Positions 53,062-64,000 of a DNA stretch of 64,000 bases are shown in pieces (within the stretch, counting starts at the first letter, position 1; the number at the start of each line of letters is the position of its first letter). Position numbers and translations under genes: made by a program. The stretch comes from Lysobacter dokdonensis DS-58. GTDB taxonomy: Bacteria; Pseudomonadota; Gammaproteobacteria; Xanthomonadales; Xanthomonadaceae. Under the pieces are notes generated by a model that was not told the origin of the DNA, did no database searches, and saw only the letters and a program-made list of their open reading frames with translations. The DNA is taken from NCBI RefSeq assembly GCF_000770795.1, contig NZ_JRKJ01000021.1, forward strand, positions 124,001-188,000, given 5' to 3'.

Positions 53062-54921
53062 ATGGCGCACAACCAGTTCGAACTCCTCCGGCAGCGGCGC
53101 TTCCTGCCGTTCTTCGCGACCCAATCGCTCGGCGCCTTCAACGACAACGTTTTCCGGCAGGCCATCATCGGCCTGCTGTTCTTCATGGGCGTGGCCAGCG
53201 ACGAGCGCAGTTTCTATACCAACCTGGCGCCCGCGATCTTCATCCTGCCGTATTTCCTGTTCAGCGCGACGGCCGGGCAGATCGCGGAGAAGCTCGAGAA
53301 GTCGCGACTGATCCGCATCACGACGATGATGGAAATCGCCATCATGTCGCTGGCTGCGGTCGGCTTCCTGATGCAGAACATGGTGGTGCTGCTCATCGCG
53401 CTGTTTTCGACGGGCGTGCAGTCCGCGCTGTTCGGCCCGGTGAAGTATTCGATCCTGCCCTCTGTGCTCAAGCCCGAGGAACTCACCGGCGGCAATGGCC
53501 TGGTCGAGATGGGCACGTCGGTGTCGATCCTCGTCGGCATGCTGCTCGGCGGGATGATCTTCCAGGTTGCCGGCGACAACGGGCCGATGGTCGCTGCAGT
53601 GTCGGTGATCCTCTTCGCGATCGCGGGCAATCTCGTCAGCCGCGCAATCCCGCCGACCGATGCCGCCGCACCGGACCTGAAGGTCGGCTGGAACCCCATT
53701 CCCGAATCCATCCGCGTCCTGCGACTGGTGCGCAAGCAGGTCGCGGTGCGCAACTCGGTGCTGGGCGTGTCGTGGTTCTGGTTCGTCGGCACGATGCTCA
53801 CCGCGCAGTTGCCGACCTACGGGGACGAGAACCTCGGCGGCGACGTGTCGACGTACACCGTCCTGCTCGCGGTGTTCTCGATCGCGACGGGCGTTGGCTC
53901 GGTGCTCTGCGAAAAACTTTCAGCGCGCACGGTGGAGATCGGCCTCGTCCCGCTCGGCGCGTTCGGCATGAGCGCGTTCCTCTTCGTCCTGGCGTTGTGG
54001 CTGCCGGAAGCGGGTGCGACGTACACCCACGGCTTGGTGCACACCATCGTCGCGCTCAGCGGCATCGGCCTGTTCGCCGGCTTCTACGTCGTGCCGTTGT
54101 TCGCGCTGATCCAGAGCCGCACGCCGAAGCGCGAACTCTCGCGCGTGATCGCGGGCATGAACATCCAGAACGCGGGCTTCATCGTGCTCGCCGCGGTGCT
54201 GGGCATCGTCGGCCTCCAATACCTGCACTGGACGATCCCGCAGCTGTTCCTGGCGCTGGCGATCGCTAATACGCTGGTGGCGCTCTGGATATTCACCGTC
54301 GTTCCCGAATTCCTGATGCGCTTCCTCAGCTGGGTGCTGGTGCGCACGCTGTACCGCCTGCGCGTGCACGGCATCGAAGCCCACGTGCCCGACGAGGGCC
54401 CTGCGCTGCTGGTGTGCAACCACGTCAGCTACATGGACGCGCTGATCCTGTCGGCGACGATCCCGCGCCCGGTGCGCTTCGTCATGTACTGGAAGATCTT
54501 CAACATCCCGGTGATGCGCTGGATCTTCCGCACCGCCAAGGCGATTCCCATCGCCGGCGCGCGCGAAAACCCGGAGCTGATGCAACGCGCCTTCGACGAA
54601 ATCGACGCCGCCCTGGCCAAAGGCGAAATCGTCGGCATCTTCCCGGAAGGTGCGTTGACCCACGACGGCCAGATCGCCGCGTTCAAATCGGGCGTCGAGA
54701 AGATCCTGCAACGCCGCGAAGTCCCCGTCGTCCCGATGGCCCTGCGCGGCATGTGGACCAGCATGTGGAGCAAACGCGACGGCCGCCTGAAACGCATGCG
54801 CGTCCCGCGCCGGTTCCGCGCGCACGTCGAGGTGATCGCGTCGACGCAGATCGAAGGCCAGATCGCCACCGCCGAGTTGCTGGAAGCGAAGGTGCGTGAA
54901 TTGCGAGGCGATGCTGCGTAG
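53062..54921 (+). CDS. MFS lysophospholipid-transporter-like / PlsC acyltransferase fusion
   Basis: 619 residues. Residues about 10-410 are a 12-helix MFS transporter of LplT type (FFATQSLGAFNDNVFRQAI opening, FGPVKYSILP). Residues about 430-610 are a PlsC/LPLAT acyltransferase with the HX4D motif in CNHVSYMDAL and FPEGALT. This is the LplT-Aas arrangement without the C-terminal acyl-ACP synthetase of Aas. Likely role: bringing lysophospholipids inward and re-acylating them. Monocistronic by spacing. Confidence 0.9.
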   Translation: MAHNQFELLRQRRFLPFFATQSLGAFNDNVFRQAIIGLLFFMGVASDERSFYTNLAPAIFILPYFLFSATAGQIAEKLEKSRLIRITTMMEIAIMSLAAVGFLMQNMVVLLIALFSTGVQSALFGPVKYSILPSVLKPEELTGGNGLVEMGTSVSILVGMLLGGMIFQVAGDNGPMVAAVSVILFAIAGNLVSRAIPPTDAAAPDLKVGWNPIPESIRVLRLVRKQVAVRNSVLGVSWFWFVGTMLTAQLPTYGDENLGGDVSTYTVLLAVFSIATGVGSVLCEKLSARTVEIGLVPLGAFGMSAFLFVLALWLPEAGATYTHGLVHTIVALSGIGLFAGFYVVPLFALIQSRTPKRELSRVIAGMNIQNAGFIVLAAVLGIVGLQYLHWTIPQLFLALAIANTLVALWIFTVVPEFLMRFLSWVLVRTLYRLRVHGIEAHVPDEGPALLVCNHVSYMDALILSATIPRPVRFVMYWKIFNIPVMRWIFRTAKAIPIAGARENPELMQRAFDEIDAALAKGEIVGIFPEGALTHDGQIAAFKSGVEKILQRREVPVVPMALRGMWTSMWSKRDGRLKRMRVPRRFRAHVEVIASTQIEGQIATAELLEAKVRELRGDAA

Positions 54922-58653: not shown

Positions 58654-59265
58654 GTGGCTTCGATCTATGCGTTGAAGGGGCGTTTCCAGGACCTGTTGCG
58701 CCCGTTGGTCCGCAAGTTGCACGCGATCGGGGCGACCGCCAACCAGGTGACCGTCGCCGCGGCGGTGCTGTCGCTGGCCGTGGCCGCGCTAGTGTGGTGG
58801 CGCGCGGGCACGCAGCCTGCGGTGTTCGCGCTGCTGCCGGCGTGGCTGTTCGTGCGCATGGCGATGAACGCCATCGACGGCATGCTCGCGCGCGAGTTCG
58901 GCCAGCAATCGCGGCTGGGCGCCTACCTCAACGAACTGAGCGATGTCATCGCCGACGCGGCGCTGTATCTCAGCCTGCTTGCGGTTCCGGGCATCGCGGC
59001 ATGGCCGTTGCTGCTGTTCGCCGGGCTGGCCTTCCTCACCGAATACGCCGGCGTGCTCGGCACGATGGTGCGCGCGTCGCGCCGTTACGACGGCCCGATG
59101 GGCAAGAGCGACCGCGCCTTCGTCGTCGGCCTGCTGGGCCTGCTTCTGTCGTTCGAACTGATCGACGCGCGCATCGTGCAGTGGGTGGTCCTGATCGCCG
59201 CGGCGCTGTGCATCGTCACCACCGTGCGCCGCATCCGCGGCGGCCTCAAGGAGCAGACGGCTTGA
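58654..59265 (+). CDS. ynbA: CDP-alcohol phosphatidyltransferase, YnbA-like
   Basis: 203 residues with about six membrane helices. GTG 58654 has GGGGAG eight bases upstream. The family signature reads NAIDGMLAR-x8-GAYLNELSD: Asn72 and Asn93 occupy the first and third Asp positions of the usual D-x2-DG-x2-AR-x8-G-x3-D-x3-D, while Asp75 and Asp97 are kept. These enzymes move a phosphatidyl group from CDP-diacylglycerol to an alcohol. The best match I recall is E. coli YnbA, of unknown acceptor. First gene of an overlapping six-gene operon. Confidence 0.85.
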
Positions 59266-61037
59266 AATCCCAGGATTTCCGCGCACACGAAGAGCGCGCG
59301 TTCACCACGTTCGACGACACACAATTGTTCTACCGCCACTGGCCCGCGACGCAGGACGGCGCGCGCCGCGCGATCGTGCTGCTGCATCGCGGCCATGAAC
59401 ACTCCGGCCGCGTGATGCACCTGGCCGACGAACTCGGCCTGCCCGGCCACGAGATTTTCGCCTGGGACGCGCGCGGCAACGGGCGCTCGCCCGGCACGCG
59501 CGGCGATGCCCCGGGGTTCGAGGCGCTGGTCCGCGATCTGGACACGTTCATCCGGCACATCGGCGAAGAGCATGGCATCGCGGCGGAGAACATCGCGGTG
59601 GTCGCGCAGAGCGTCGGCGCGGTCGTCGCGGCGACGTGGGTGCATGACTATGCGCCGCGCCTGCGCGCGCTCGTGCTGGCGTCGCCGGCCTTCAAGGTGA
59701 AGTTGTACGTGCCCTTCGCTCGCCCCGGCCTGCGCCTGATGCACAAGCTGCGTGGCAACTTCTTCGTGAACTCGTACGTCAAGCCGCAGTGGCTGACGCA
59801 CGACGCCGGGCGTGTGGCGAGCTACGCCGCCGATCCGCTGATCACGCGGCCGATTTCCGTGCGCGTGCTGCTGGGCTTGTACGACACCGCCGAGCGCATC
59901 GTCGCCGATTCGCAGGCCATCACCGTACCGACGCAATTGCTCGTGTCGGGCGCGGACTTCGTCGTGCATCGCGGCCCGCAGGATCGCTTCTACGAAGGCC
60001 TGGGATCGCCGATCAAGGAACGCCACCTGCTGCCGGGGTTCTTCCACGACACACTCGGCGAGCGCGACCGCGCGCCTGCCATCGCGAAGATCCGCAGCTT
60101 CATCGAAGCGCGCTTCGCGGAAGCCTGGTCGCGTCCGGACCTGCGCGACGCGCATCGCCGCGGCCCGACCTTCGAGGAATCCGAACGCCTCGCCTGGCCG
60201 CCCGAACGCTGGAGCCTGGCAGACCTGCGCTGGCGCTTCACGCGTGCGTCGCTTCGGTTCGGCGGCACGTTGTCGGAAGGCGTGAAACTCGGCCTGGACA
60301 CGGGCTTCGACTCGGGGAGCACGCTCGACTACGTGTATCGCAACCAGGCGCGCGGCCGGACGTTCCTCGGCCGCATGATCGACCGCAACTACATCGATGC
60401 GATCGGCTGGCGCGGGATCCGCGTGCGTCGCGAGCACCTGCACGCGCTGATCGGCGAAGCGATGCGGCGCCTGCGCGTGGATGGGCAAGCGGTGCATGCG
60501 ATGGACATCGCCGCAGGGCACGGCCGTTATGCGCTGGAAGCACTGACCGGTAGCGCAGGCGGCGGCGGACGCGCCGACAGCATCCTGCTGCGCGATTACA
60601 GCGACATCAACGTCGCGCAGGGCCGTGCGCTGATCGCGCAACTTGGCGCACAGGACATCGCGCGTTTCGAGCAGGCCGATGCGTTCGATCGCGCGTCGCT
60701 CGCCGGCGTCTCACCCCGACCGACGCTCGCCATCGTGTCGGGCCTGTACGAACTGTTCCCCGACAACGACGCGGTGTTCCGTTCGCTGCAGGGGATCGCC
60801 GACGCGGTGCCGCCCGGCGGGTATCTCGCCTATACCGGGCAGCCGTGGCATCCGCAGCTCGAATTCATCGCGCGTGCGTTGACGAGCCATCGTGGTGGAG
60901 CGTCCTGGGTCATGCGCCGCCGCACGCAGCAGGAAATGGACGAGCTCGTGCGTGCCGCCGGCTTCGAGAAGGTGGACCAGCGCATCGACCCGTGGGGCAT
61001 CTTCACCGTCTCGCTCGCGCGGCGGGTCGGCGCGTGA
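59262..61037 (+). CDS. ynbC: Alpha/beta-hydrolase-methyltransferase fusion, YnbC-like
   Basis: 591 residues (E. coli YnbC 585 as I recall). Start TTG 59262, supported by AAGGAG eight bases upstream and a TTGA overlap with ynbA. Residues about 10-290 are a monoacylglycerol-lipase-type hydrolase (LLHRGHEHSGRV, FAWDARGNGRSPG, nucleophile Ser117 in AQSVGA, a non-canonical elbow with Ala in place of the first Gly). Residues about 390-590 are a SAM-dependent methyltransferase-like domain (MDIAAGHGRYALEAL; LRDYSDINVAQG). It may trim an acyl chain from, and methylate, the lipid made by this operon (inference). Confidence 0.85.
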   Translation: MKSQDFRAHEERAFTTFDDTQLFYRHWPATQDGARRAIVLLHRGHEHSGRVMHLADELGLPGHEIFAWDARGNGRSPGTRGDAPGFEALVRDLDTFIRHIGEEHGIAAENIAVVAQSVGAVVAATWVHDYAPRLRALVLASPAFKVKLYVPFARPGLRLMHKLRGNFFVNSYVKPQWLTHDAGRVASYAADPLITRPISVRVLLGLYDTAERIVADSQAITVPTQLLVSGADFVVHRGPQDRFYEGLGSPIKERHLLPGFFHDTLGERDRAPAIAKIRSFIEARFAEAWSRPDLRDAHRRGPTFEESERLAWPPERWSLADLRWRFTRASLRFGGTLSEGVKLGLDTGFDSGSTLDYVYRNQARGRTFLGRMIDRNYIDAIGWRGIRVRREHLHALIGEAMRRLRVDGQAVHAMDIAAGHGRYALEALTGSAGGGGRADSILLRDYSDINVAQGRALIAQLGAQDIARFEQADAFDRASLAGVSPRPTLAIVSGLYELFPDNDAVFRSLQGIADAVPPGGYLAYTGQPWHPQLEFIARALTSHRGGASWVMRRRTQQEMDELVRAAGFEKVDQRIDPWGIFTVSLARRVGA

Positions 61038-62320
61038 CAACAGGCTCGCGCCCGTGGCGGCGCGCGCTCGCGTGGCTGTCGCTGCTCGGGCCGCTGTTTT
61101 TCGCGAGCTACGGGTTCGCCAACGCGATGGCAGCACGCGCGACCGACGTGCGCAGCATCGTCTTCGCGTGGGAGTCGCACGTGCCGTTCCTCGCGTGGAC
61201 GATCGTCCCGTACTGGTCGATCGACTTCTTCTACGCCGCCTCGTTGTTCACGTGCCGCGACAAGCGCGAAGTCGACACGCATGCATTGCGTCTGCTGACC
61301 GCACAGGTCGTGTCGGTCGCGTGTTTCCTGATTTGGCCGCTGCGCTTCGCCTTCACGCGCCCGGAGACCGACGGGCTGTTCGGCTGGATGTTCGACGTGT
61401 TGCTGGGGTTCGACAAGCCATTCAACCAGGCGCCGTCGCTGCACATCGTGCTGCTCGTGATCCTGTGGGTGCGCTACGGGACGCTCGCGCGCGGCGCGTG
61501 GCGCTGGTTGCTGCATGCGTGGTTCGCATTGATCGGCGTATCGGTCCTGACGACGTTCCAGCATCACTTCATCGACATTCCCACCGGCGCGCTCGCGGGG
61601 TGGGTCTGCGTGTGGTTGTGGCCGGCCGAAGGGCGCGCGCCCTGGCGCGGCGCGGCGTGGGCGCGCGATGCGAAGCGGTGGCGGCTCTGCGCTGCGTACG
61701 CGGCCGGTGCGCTCGCGTGCACCGCGCTCGCGGTGTGGCTGCGTGGGGTCGCGTGGTGGTTGCTGTGGCCCGCGGTCTCGCTGTCGCTCGTCGCGCTCAA
61801 CTATTCGGTGCTCGGCGCTGCGGGCTTCCAGAAGTCGACGTCCGACGGGCGGCTGTCGATGGCATCGCGCTGGTTGTTCGCGCCGTATCTGACCGCTGCG
61901 TGGATCAACTCGCGCTGGTGGACCCGCGCCGCCCCGCGCCCGGTGCATGTCGCGGACGACGTGTGGCTCGGTCGGTTGCCGGGACGCGGCGAGCGCGATG
62001 GGTTCGACGTGGTGGTCGATGTCAGCGCGGAACTGTCGATGCCCGCTGCGCGCCCCACCGACGTATTCCGGCCGATGCTTGATCTCGTCGTGCCGGAAGC
62101 GGCGCAGCTGAAGGGTGTGGCGCGTGATATCGAAGCGGCGCGCGTGCGTGGTCGCGTGCTGGTCTGCTGCGCGCTGGGTTACTCGCGCAGCGCAGCGTCG
62201 ATCGCCGCGTGGTTGGTCGACAGCGGGCGCGCGGCATCGGCGTCGGTGGCAATCGAACGCGTCCGCGCGGCGCGCCCGCAGATCGTGCTCGGGCACGCAC
62301 ATCAACGGGTGATCGCGTGA
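61034..62320 (+). CDS. ynbD: PAP2-type membrane phosphatase / dual-specificity phosphatase fusion, YnbD-like
   Basis: 428 residues (E. coli YnbD 430 as I recall), GTG 61034 in a GTGA overlap with ynbC. The N-terminal part (about 10-320) has seven or eight membrane helices with PAP2 motifs PSLH (His137) and HHFIDIPTG (His178, Asp181). The C-terminal part (about 325-428) is a protein-tyrosine/dual-specificity phosphatase with Cys379-x5-Arg385 (CALGYSR). Phosphatases of the second type include PTPMT1, which dephosphorylates phosphatidylglycerophosphate, so this fusion probably removes phosphate from the operon's phospholipid intermediate. Confidence 0.87.
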   Translation: MTTGSRPWRRALAWLSLLGPLFFASYGFANAMAARATDVRSIVFAWESHVPFLAWTIVPYWSIDFFYAASLFTCRDKREVDTHALRLLTAQVVSVACFLIWPLRFAFTRPETDGLFGWMFDVLLGFDKPFNQAPSLHIVLLVILWVRYGTLARGAWRWLLHAWFALIGVSVLTTFQHHFIDIPTGALAGWVCVWLWPAEGRAPWRGAAWARDAKRWRLCAAYAAGALACTALAVWLRGVAWWLLWPAVSLSLVALNYSVLGAAGFQKSTSDGRLSMASRWLFAPYLTAAWINSRWWTRAAPRPVHVADDVWLGRLPGRGERDGFDVVVDVSAELSMPAARPTDVFRPMLDLVVPEAAQLKGVARDIEAARVRGRVLVCCALGYSRSAASIAAWLVDSGRAASASVAIERVRAARPQIVLGHAHQRVIA

Positions 62321-62760
62321 CCGCGCCGATGGACTTGCGCGTGATGGGGACGTTGCTGCGGCAGGGGCGCCGGGTCGATGCGTGTTCGGGTGGGGTCGCG
62401 TTCGTCGCGGTTGCATGGCTGGTGGCGATGACGTTCGCAACGGCCGATGTCACGGTCGTCGCGTGCCTGGTCGCGAGCCTCGGGTTCGCCGCATGGCGTG
62501 CGTGGCTGGGGGTGCGCATCGCGTTCGATGCCGGGCTGTTCCTCGCTGCCGCCGATGCGGGCACGCCAGGGCAGGCCGCGGAGGCGCTCGATCGCAGCCT
62601 GATCGCACTGCGCTTGGTCGCACCGGAACGCGCCGGCCGCGATTGGCCTGCGCGATGGCAAGGGGCGCGCGCCCTGATGCGCACCCATTTCATCGCCGCC
62701 ACATGCCAGTGCGCGGTCTTCGCGGTCGCGCTCGCGGTCGCCGTGTCGAAGGGAACCTGA
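62317..62760 (+). CDS. Small two-helix membrane protein in the ynb-like operon
   Basis: 147 residues from GTG 62317 (GTGA overlap with ynbD; ATG 62329 is the alternative). Two N-terminal hydrophobic segments (about 24-65), a central helical Ala/Leu-rich part, and a third hydrophobic segment at the C-terminus. No family recognised. The translational overlap with its neighbour implies a function in the same pathway, perhaps as a subunit or chaperone for a membrane enzyme. Confidence 0.65.
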   Translation: MTAPMDLRVMGTLLRQGRRVDACSGGVAFVAVAWLVAMTFATADVTVVACLVASLGFAAWRAWLGVRIAFDAGLFLAAADAGTPGQAAEALDRSLIALRLVAPERAGRDWPARWQGARALMRTHFIAATCQCAVFAVALAVAVSKGT

Positions 62761-62764
62761 TCGC

Positions 62765-63391
62765 ATGTTCGCAGGGATGCTCGCCGCGGGATTCCGCTTC
62801 GCGATTCGCGCCATCACCGGCGCGCGCGCGATCTGGCGCGCGCCGCCGTCGCGCGAGTTGTGCGTGTACTACGGCAACCACTCCAGCCACGGCGATTTCG
62901 TGCTGCTGTGGTCGGCGTTGCCGCCCGCGCTGCGCGGCACGGTGCGGCCGGTGGCGGGCGCGGATTACTGGAACCGCGGCGCGCTGCGGCGTTACATCAT
63001 CCGCGCGGTGTTCAACGGCGTGCTGATCGACCGCGATGCCGCGCAGCGCACGCACGACCCCATCGATACGTTGTGCGAAGCGATCGACGGCGGGCATTCG
63101 CTGATCCTCTTCCCGGAAGGCACGCGCAACCCGGGCGACGGGCTGCTGCCCTTCAAGAGCGGCCTGTACCACCTGGCGCGCAAGCGGGCGGAAGTGGACT
63201 TCGTGCCGGTGTGGCTGGAAAACCTGGCGCGCGTGATGCCGAAGGGGAAGATCCTGCCGCTGCCCTTGTTGTGCACCGCGACCTTCGGCGAGCCGCTGCG
63301 GTTGCGCGACCACGAAGAAAAACAAGCGTTCCTCGACCGCGCGCGCGATGCGTTGCTCGCGCTCGCCCCCCGCAACGGATCGACGCCATGA
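62765..63391 (+). CDS. PlsC-like 1-acylglycerol-phosphate acyltransferase
   Basis: 208 residues. HX4D motif His39-Asp44 in GNHSSHGDF, FPEGTR about 116-121, followed by LPFKSGLYHLA, as in LPLAT family members. It transfers acyl groups to lysophosphatidate or a related lipid. It starts four bases after the small membrane gene and overlaps the cytidylyltransferase start (ATGA). E. coli ynbABCD lacks this gene as I recall. Confidence 0.9.
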   Translation: MFAGMLAAGFRFAIRAITGARAIWRAPPSRELCVYYGNHSSHGDFVLLWSALPPALRGTVRPVAGADYWNRGALRRYIIRAVFNGVLIDRDAAQRTHDPIDTLCEAIDGGHSLILFPEGTRNPGDGLLPFKSGLYHLARKRAEVDFVPVWLENLARVMPKGKILPLPLLCTATFGEPLRLRDHEEKQAFLDRARDALLALAPRNGSTP

Positions 63392-64000
63392 TCGAGTTCC
63401 TGCGCCAATGGCCGCAGACGGTGCTGCTGTTCGGCGGCATCTTCGCGGTCCTGATCCTCGCCACCGCCATCGCCGAGGCGCTGCGCTGGCGCACGCGCGG
63501 GCGGCCGAACACGGTGGTGGACAATCTCGTCGCACGCATCCGCGCATGGTGGGTGATGGCGGCGGTGATGGCCGCGGCCTTCTGGCTCGGGCGCACCGGG
63601 ATGATCGTGCTGTTCGCGCTCGTCTCGTTGTTCGCGCTGCGCGAGTTCATCACGCTGACGCCGACGCGCCGCAACGATTACTGGGCGCTTGCGGTCGCGT
63701 TCTATCTCGTCTTGCCGGGACAGTACTGGCTGGTCTACACCGACTGGTACGGCATGTACACGCTCCTGATCCCCGTGTACGCCTTCCTGCTGCTGCCGAT
63801 CCTGTCCACGCACGGCGGCGACACCACGGCGTTCCTGGAGCGCACCTCGAAGGTGCAGTGGGGCCTGATGATCTGCGTGTTCTGCATCTCGCACGTGCCG
63901 GCGCTGCTGAACCTGCACATCCCCGGTTTCGAAGGACGCAACCTGCTGCTGATCGCGTTCCTGGTGATCGTCGTGCAGTCCTCGGACGTGTTGCAGTACC
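63388..64000 (+). CDS. ynbB: Phosphatidate cytidylyltransferase (CdsA-like, YnbB-like), 3' end beyond window
   Basis: 204 codons are visible from ATG 63388, open to the window end. Many membrane helices: LLFGGIFAVLILATAIAEAL, WWVMAAVMAAAFWLGR, LVSLFALREFITLTPTRRND (ALREF-x-TL is a CdsA-type landmark), then VVQSSDVLQY entering the C-terminal catalytic signature, which is cut off. It makes CDP-diacylglycerol from phosphatidate and CTP, the donor for the YnbA-like transferase five genes upstream. Confidence 0.85.
   Translation, partial: MIEFLRQWPQTVLLFGGIFAVLILATAIAEALRWRTRGRPNTVVDNLVARIRAWWVMAAVMAAAFWLGRTGMIVLFALVSLFALREFITLTPTRRNDYWALAVAFYLVLPGQYWLVYTDWYGMYTLLIPVYAFLLLPILSTHGGDTTAFLERTSKVQWGLMICVFCISHVPALLNLHIPGFEGRNLLLIAFLVIVVQSSDVLQY

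Follow-up and report, generated by a model that had tools for sequence, protein, structure and literature searches.

Does the operon at the end of the analyzed stretch encode a phospholipid assembly line of its own, apart from the housekeeping one, and if so, what could it make? The stretch comprises 64,000 nucleotides of the Lysobacter dokdonensis DS-58 genome (contig NZ_JRKJ01000021.1, positions 124,001 to 188,000; hereafter the window), and the operon consists of six genes, all on the plus strand, whose reading was confirmed beyond the window end into the contig. The initial annotation had described an expanded ynbABCD-type operon and proposed a dedicated phospholipid line; the observation is confirmed by our analysis and the interpretation is partly supported. 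At the gene level the idea of a dedicated line is supported by content, order, co-occurrence and motif conservation. We regard it as probable that operons of this type, named here after ynbABCD of Escherichia coli and arc1 of Pseudomonas aeruginosa, form an accessory line apart from the housekeeping synthesis of phosphatidylglycerol (PG) and phosphatidylethanolamine.

The first gene, g1 (58654-59265; GTG start, 203 aa), encodes a YnbA-type protein with the CDP-alcohol transferase fold and a non-canonical motif, as identified by Pfam and NCBIfam. It is followed by g2 (59262-61037; TTG start, 591 aa), a YnbC-type fusion of a monoacylglycerol-lipase-like alpha/beta hydrolase with a Methyltransf_20 domain, and by g3 (61034-62320; GTG start, 428 aa), a YnbD-type fusion of a PAP2-like membrane domain with a dual-specificity phosphatase. 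Next come g4 (62317-62760; GTG start, 147 aa), a small membrane protein whose hydropathy profile shows two hydrophobic segments, g5 (62765-63391; ATG start, 208 aa), a PlsC-family acyltransferase with the motifs NHSSHGD and FPEGTRN, and g6 (63388-64338; 316 aa), a YnbB-type CDP-diglyceride synthase. The window stops inside g6 at base 64000, and the remainder to 64338 was taken from the fetched locus L005 (L005:7388-8338). Coordinates and junction sequences bear out the 4-bp overlaps noted at four of the five junctions (TTGA, GTGA, GTGA and ATGA), with a 4-nt gap between g4 and g5 instead.

Four of the six proteins are orthologues of the E. coli K-12 (NC_000913) Ynb proteins, so that the assignment to the ynbABCD type stands: g1, g6, g2 and g3 share 45, 39, 57 and 38% identity with YnbA, YnbB, YnbC and YnbD, respectively. 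The E. coli cluster differs in its order, A-B-C-D, and in having neither PlsC nor the small membrane protein. The YnbA- and YnbB-type proteins of the window are closer to Ynb than to housekeeping PgsA, Pss or CdsA. Thus g6 aligns with YnbB over 301 residues and with E. coli CdsA only over the C-terminal 119, and g1 gave no BLAST match at 1e-3 to PgsA or Pss of its own genome. By BLAST, alignment span and gene order alike, neither a better alignment with housekeeping PgsA, PssA or CdsA nor a non-conserved neighborhood was found. The claim of a route apart from housekeeping gains from a second set elsewhere in the same genome, which consists of another CdsA-type gene and of three CDP-alcohol transferases whose motif is canonical.

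Gene order and the candidate core of the operon

Gene order was compared over 96 loci, 94 of them distinct (L094 duplicates L023, and L114 duplicates L021), namely 80 from a search with the g2/YnbC fusion, five relatives, a class sample of nine, the window and E. coli. As the 80 fusion loci are the closest of 503 confirmed matches, the order counts are biased to close relatives. The neighborhood is conserved: the order of the window, YnbA-YnbC-YnbD-small protein-PlsC-YnbB (A-C-D-s-P-B), recurs in 71 of the 96 loci, the window included, and in most of the fetched Pseudomonas loci. An extra transferase lies between the small protein and PlsC in 10 of the 96; A-B-C-D was found in E. coli and one other locus, and A-B-P-C-D and A-B-C in one locus each. 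Named hosts are Lysobacter, Xanthomonas, Stenotrophomonas, Luteimonas, Pseudomonas, Cupriavidus, and metagenome-assembled genomes of Rhodocyclaceae and Acidobacteria. A chance arrangement is excluded, because other genera keep the same gene order. No comparable operon was found in the available part of a paper on Brucella BvrR.

In several Lysobacter and Xanthomonas loci (L014, L016, L018, L025 and others) two extra genes stand between the small gene and PlsC, one for a membrane protein of the TIGR04222 family (scored in L016 and L018) and one for a second transferase-like protein with a similarly altered motif.

A wider view comes from an evenly drawn sample of 398 Pseudomonadota genomes, in which transferase matches were taken to E 1e-11. 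Strong YnbA proteins occur in 37 genomes, and beside them we found a YnbB-type gene in 33, PlsC in 32, YnbC in 27, YnbD in 25 and the small protein in 25, the last being weakly detected and maybe undercounted. All 27 genomes with a full YnbC-type fusion (one of them, G776, with a stop codon) are among these 37. Among the 10 genomes with YnbA and without YnbC, eight have a cassette of the form A-B-P or A-P-B, one has a broken fragment that contains a stop codon, and one has an isolated gene. The 11 next-best transferase matches, here called clade 2, have B and P adjacent at 10 loci and no full YnbC.

YnbB-type CdsA proteins are found in 69 of the 398 genomes, and in 46 of the 47 with either transferase clade (Fisher p 1e-41, a value that ignores relatedness and excludes eight transferases found later). 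The eight came to light among the 23 further YnbB-type genomes: in the 16 that were fetched, PlsC is adjacent to YnbB every time, and half have a clade-2 transferase that the search had missed. Overall, of 59 loci examined, 58 have PlsC adjoining the YnbB-type gene and 51 have a YnbA-type gene beside it; the one locus without adjacent PlsC is a broken fragment. These 59 are taken from 70 YnbB-type loci (omitted are G640, G681, G782, the second G764 copy and seven of the 23 genomes with no transferase detected), and a distant "PlsC" in these counts is a match to a profile of close relatives (down to E 1e-29) that may be any PlsC-family protein.

The proposal of a self-contained phosphatidate supply is strengthened by the 58 loci with adjacent PlsC. 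Judged from gene neighborhoods, the likely core is PlsC plus YnbB, to which a YnbA-type transferase is usually added; the block of YnbC, YnbD and the small protein appears to be accessory. This revises the assembly line originally drawn from all six genes, in that the hydrolase-methyltransferase and the phosphatase look accessory (27 and 25 of the 37 strong-YnbA genomes). A core of YnbA, YnbB and YnbC, as read from the first distant loci, was discarded, as the wider sample gave PlsC and YnbB, and YnbC in only 27 of 37. We did not find a PlsC-YnbB core described in the open-licence PMC literature. If the core is right, PlsC, YnbB and YnbA would be the minimal gene set with which to look for the product.

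One A-B-P locus, L178, adjoins genes that we take by eye to be azoR and hrpA. The same two genes follow ynbD in E. coli, which suggests that the E. coli lineage lost PlsC. Neighbors were also considered as a clue to the head group; the flanks of stand-alone P-B(-A) loci, with gene names that were likewise presumed by eye, looked varied and gave none. A relative from the same family carries a clade-2 transferase-PlsC-YnbB cassette (L181:4606-10551) near a hydrolase that resembles only the N-terminal half of YnbC. In-frame stop codons interrupt fusion or transferase frames in L188 (G776) and L180 (G500), probably a sign either of decay in certain lineages or of an error in the sequence.

The altered active site of YnbA

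The transferase g1 matches Pfam CDP-OH_P_transf with 36.5 bits (cut-off 22). Its nearest NCBIfam families are archaetidylinositol-phosphate synthase (75.8 bits), phosphatidylinositol-phosphate synthase (PIPS; 42.3) and PgsA (28.5), all below their cut-offs, and it fails both curated inositol-phosphate synthase models, NF045883 and NF040950 (42.3 of 170 and 75.8 of 180 bits). The structures nearest to its AlphaFold model (pLDDT 92.6) are phosphatidylinositol-phosphate synthases as well (Foldseek, TMq 0.68-0.77). An inositol head group was considered on these grounds and rejected, as no inositol-phosphate synthase family was matched in the own genome; E. coli, likewise, is not among the control genomes that match these families.

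In the family motif DxxDGxxAR...GxxxDxxxD the aspartates (D1 to D4) coordinate two metal ions, with the last one presumed to act as the base (PMC6506517). The canonical motif is absent from g1, where it reads NxxDGxxAR...GxxxNxxxD in all 87 aligned rows (g1 and 86 relatives). The D1 and D3 positions are invariably Asn (N72 and N93), and two more residues are invariant, an Arg four positions before D1 (R68) and a Glu directly after D3 (E94), so that the motif residues of g1 are R68, N72, D75, N93, E94, D97 and D101. All 94 YnbA copies taken from the 96 loci, 92 of them distinct, show the signature R-x3-N-x2-D-G...N-E-x2-D. Among the strong YnbA proteins of the 398 genomes, 36 of 37 have R/N/N/E at these positions, the exception being the isolated copy of G672 with Ala at D1; so do 10 of the 11 clade-2 transferases, with Asp for Glu in the remaining one. 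In the extended operons, all 10 scored copies of the additional transferase have R, N/S, N/S and D/E (the degenerate second transferase of L028 fell under the threshold and was left out). Four controls, the PgsA and two Pss-type proteins of the own genome and E. coli PgsA, all have A, D, D and P/S instead.

Other features of the inositol-phosphate synthases are retained. R154 and R193 of g1 align with R155 and R195 of PIPS, which hold a sulfate and are taken as the acceptor-phosphate site (PMC6506517); these arginines are present in all 22 aligned members of three subgroups, YnbA and two others, and in neither PgsA. At the position after D4, where PIPS has a residue shown to be critical (R94; PMC6506517), YnbA carries Val and both other subgroups carry Arg. 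Like phosphatidylinositol-phosphate and archaetidylinositol-phosphate synthases, g1 thus has the fold, D2 and D4, the AR of the motif and the pocket arginines; unlike them, it has Asn at D1 and D3, the Arg before D1 and the Glu after D3. Aligned members of the three divergent subgroups keep D2, D4, D101, the arginine pocket and the acid (Glu or Asp) after D3, and this suggests that catalysis is retained by a rebuilt site. We infer that YnbA is active, that its metal site has been rebuilt and that its acceptor is anionic.

A farther-reaching version of this idea is tentative, and we would sooner expect it to fail in some part than to hold as a whole: YnbA and the two related subgroups would be an active branch of their own among the CDP-alcohol transferases, with the first metal site rebuilt (Asn, Asn and an Arg where metal ligands would stand, and the Glu or Asp displaced by one position). 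Together with PlsC and YnbB, its usual partners, this branch would make a phospholipid undescribed in bacteria that is used in defence, with PlsC lost from the E. coli version. A transferase branch with R/N/N/E was not found in the open-licence PMC literature. Whether YnbA represents a new type of enzyme would be decided by the active-site residues named here.

Likeness to arc1 and competing explanations

In P. aeruginosa, arc1A-F (PA2541-PA2536) is a Gac/Rsm-induced cluster of six genes, five of them lipid-related, that acts in defence against type VI attack; deletion of the most strongly hit Arc1 gene lowers fitness under such attack (PMC8926400). PA2537 is annotated as an acyltransferase (PMC2246019) and PA2536 as a phosphatidate cytidylyltransferase (PMC8190622). 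The window operon, compared by description, likewise has six genes, five of them phospholipid-related, with the acyltransferase fifth and the cytidylyltransferase sixth. This fits an arc1-type operon, that is, one whose kind is known and whose chemistry is biochemically unsolved in the literature read: the part of the arc study available to us assigns no reaction to Arc1 (PMC8926400). The term "ynb" is absent from the main text of that study, and an equation of ynb with arc1 was not found in the open-licence PMC literature. The own genome encodes an Arc3A-family protein and a member of the CsrA family. Of 93 operon leaders, 56 carry an ANGGA motif, as expected for RsmA/CsrA-like sites, no more than 20 nt from the start, for example in the Pseudomonas loci L046, L066 and L086, a count with start codons picked by a simple rule and no chance level computed. 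The leader in the window folds no better than shuffled sequences (z 0.66).

The statement that ynbABCD is uncharacterized is outdated: experiments in E. coli have addressed YnbB (PMC6362211) and YnbD (PMC7413402), and the six-gene cluster fits arc1 (PMC8926400). YnbB cannot replace CdsA, yet its overproduction raises the level of the glycolipid MPIase, which is unchanged upon deletion of ynbB (PMC6362211). In addition, ynbB was a hit in a screen concerning phosphoglyceride-linked enterobacterial common antigen but is dispensable for it (PMC8609368), a ynbC insertion increased polyphosphate in one background only (PMC2435150), and activation of ynbA by BglJ-RcsB is stated second-hand.

On the best reading, the line would be inducible and would make and tailor a non-housekeeping phospholipid for envelope defence. 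By family, PlsC (g5) would acylate lysophosphatidate to phosphatidate, YnbB-type g6 would convert this to CDP-diacylglycerol, and the phosphatidyl group would then be passed to an acceptor by the atypical transferase g1. This acceptor is probably an alcohol that is anionic or phosphorylated, given that g1 keeps the phosphate-pocket arginines of phosphatidylinositol-phosphate synthases. With less confidence, the dual-specificity phosphatase of g3, assumed to be cytoplasmic, might remove a head-group phosphate, its PAP2-like domain might act on another lipid phosphate, and g2 might strip an acyl chain and/or methylate either the lipid or an intermediate; g4 may serve to keep the operon proteins together. 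Reasoning from arc1, we would expect the lipid to be made when rivals damage the envelope. Such a reading joins two threads kept apart in the literature consulted, that of E. coli ynbABCD, with a side route to MPIase and a PAP2 protein still unexplained, and that of arc1 in Pseudomonas. It also offers a testable reason why overproduced YnbB cannot replace CdsA, in that its CDP-diacylglycerol may be meant for YnbA.

Several observations weigh against this reading. Half of the 16 fetched P-B pairs have no YnbA-type gene nearby, YnbB-type genes stand without adjacent PlsC in E. coli (L006), L116, L119, L121 and the truncated L122, and L117 has YnbC, YnbD and the small protein with no YnbA, YnbB or PlsC nearby. 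The operon is patchy among relatives of the window genome, with PF12147 in six of 40 genomes, its own included, and in none of four congeners. The link to arc1 rests on gene number, gene order and two annotations, the window operon has no ANGGA motif in its own leader, and no match to a type VI secretion system sheath was found in the window genome. Missing two of the four motif aspartates, g1 could be inactive, because such mutations in the phosphatidylserine synthase MjPSS reduce or abolish activity. Finally, in E. coli YnbB fails to replace CdsA (data not shown in that study; PMC6362211) and YnbD does not replace phosphatases for phosphatidylglycerol phosphate (PGP) or undecaprenyl pyrophosphate (PMC7413402).

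The strongest competitor, in our view still unlikely, is an inducible second copy of ordinary PG synthesis, with g5, g6, g1 and g3 acting as PlsC, CdsA, PgsA and PGP phosphatase and restoring the PG that is lost under attack. The arc1 authors note that four genes are homologous to PG-synthesis enzymes (PMC8926400), and a duplicate route is possible, as the genome encodes its own PgsA elsewhere. However, inositol-phosphate synthase models give g1 a higher score than the PgsA model does, and D1 and D3 are absent from it. YnbD, the orthologue of g3, did not rescue PG synthesis in a strain without PGP phosphatases (PMC7413402), which contradicts a PGP-phosphatase role for YnbD, and YnbB did not rescue the loss of CdsA (PMC6362211); these published complementation failures are evidence against plain PG synthesis.

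Somewhat less likely is lysophospholipid clearance or acyl remodeling, in which g2 would remove and g5 reload acyl chains on damaged lipids, while the CDP-diacylglycerol enzymes recycle the backbone. The N-terminal domain of g2 resembles monoacylglycerol lipase and, weakly, lysophospholipase L2; a fusion protein resembling LplT/Aas-type proteins is encoded 3.7 kb upstream; and phospholipase toxins are among the threats in the arc work, where one Arc1 gene passed the threshold for defence against Tle3 (PMC8926400). Yet YnbC is missing in 10 of the 37 strong-YnbA genomes, and PlsC and YnbB stay in eight of these, so that synthesis rather than clearance looks like the core. Moreover, phospholipase-specific defence came from Arc3, and no single toxin mutation relieved the Arc1 defect, although a specific effector is not excluded by the authors (PMC8926400).

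We give little credence to a pyrophosphate-linked glycolipid, in which CDP-diacylglycerol from YnbB would be joined to a sugar 1-phosphate by YnbA or YnbB, as in N-acetylglucosamine-pyrophosphate-diacylglycerol (GlcNAc-PP-DAG), the MPIase precursor. A phosphate nucleophile might be accommodated by a metal site rebuilt in this way, overproduced YnbB raises MPIase, and the authors' model has CdsA and YnbB make GlcNAc-PP-DAG; MPIase is unchanged in the ynbB deletion, however, and the step is assigned to CdsA/YnbB with YnbA unnamed in the text searched (PMC6362211). PlsC, the methyltransferase and the hydrolase would also be left unexplained. Equally improbable is that YnbA is a pseudoenzyme that binds CDP-diacylglycerol and steers or senses instead of transferring: Asn at D1 and D3 in 94 of 94 copies, Ala at D1 in G672, and the crippling effect of Ser or Asn replacements in MjPSS, which cut or kill activity with partial rescue of some by extra Mg (PMC8633023), would agree with it, but the residues retained in three divergent subgroups argue for catalysis.

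The remaining proteins and the surroundings

Pfam and NCBIfam agree with the families originally assigned to the operon proteins, except that the PAP2 part of g3 scores below the curated cut-off. Both halves of g2 are well matched (Hydrolase_4, 233.9 bits; Methyltransf_20, 492.2 bits), and S117, D232 and H262, presumably the catalytic triad by analogy with the family, are conserved together with the S-adenosylmethionine motif in at least 97% of 82-87 aligned rows. A profile of the whole fusion did not serve to identify the methyltransferase, as it matched only alpha/beta hydrolases in the PDB (E 0.001); the best 50 of 1990 Foldseek rows are alpha/beta hydrolases too.

For g3, the phosphatase domain passes its cut-off (DSPc, 36.8 bits against 33.5) and PAP2_3 does not (18 bits against 27). 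H137, H177/H178, D181, C379 and R385 are conserved to the same degree as the g2 residues, and we assume from the families that they are catalytic, C379 and R385 belonging to the dual-specificity phosphatase domain. The PAP2 reading is favored because the motifs PSLH and HHxxD are invariant and because YnbD is treated as a putative PAP2 protein (PMC7413402). The hydropathy segments of g3 differ from those of YnbD, with one inside the phosphatase domain, and plain hydropathy is too crude for topology.

The small protein g4 has no match in Pfam or NCBIfam. The HX4D motif of g5 (Pfam Acyltransferase, 63.8 bits) and the CdsA signature of g6 (CTP_transf_1, 233.5 bits) are again conserved in at least 97% of the rows, and their residues presumably have the roles known from these families. 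A PADLOC search with the six operon proteins gave no match.

Upstream, the operon is flanked by divergent genes that we take by eye to be purH and purD. Looking beyond base 64000, as the initial annotation had proposed, completed g6 to 64338 and placed a convergent gene on the minus strand at the end of the operon. The fusion protein 3.7 kb upstream (53062-54918, plus strand) combines a major facilitator superfamily transporter with a PlsC domain; its top NCBIfam matches, acyl-ACP phospholipid O-acyltransferase and LplT, are both below their cut-offs, and it is possibly a lysophospholipid import and repair protein.

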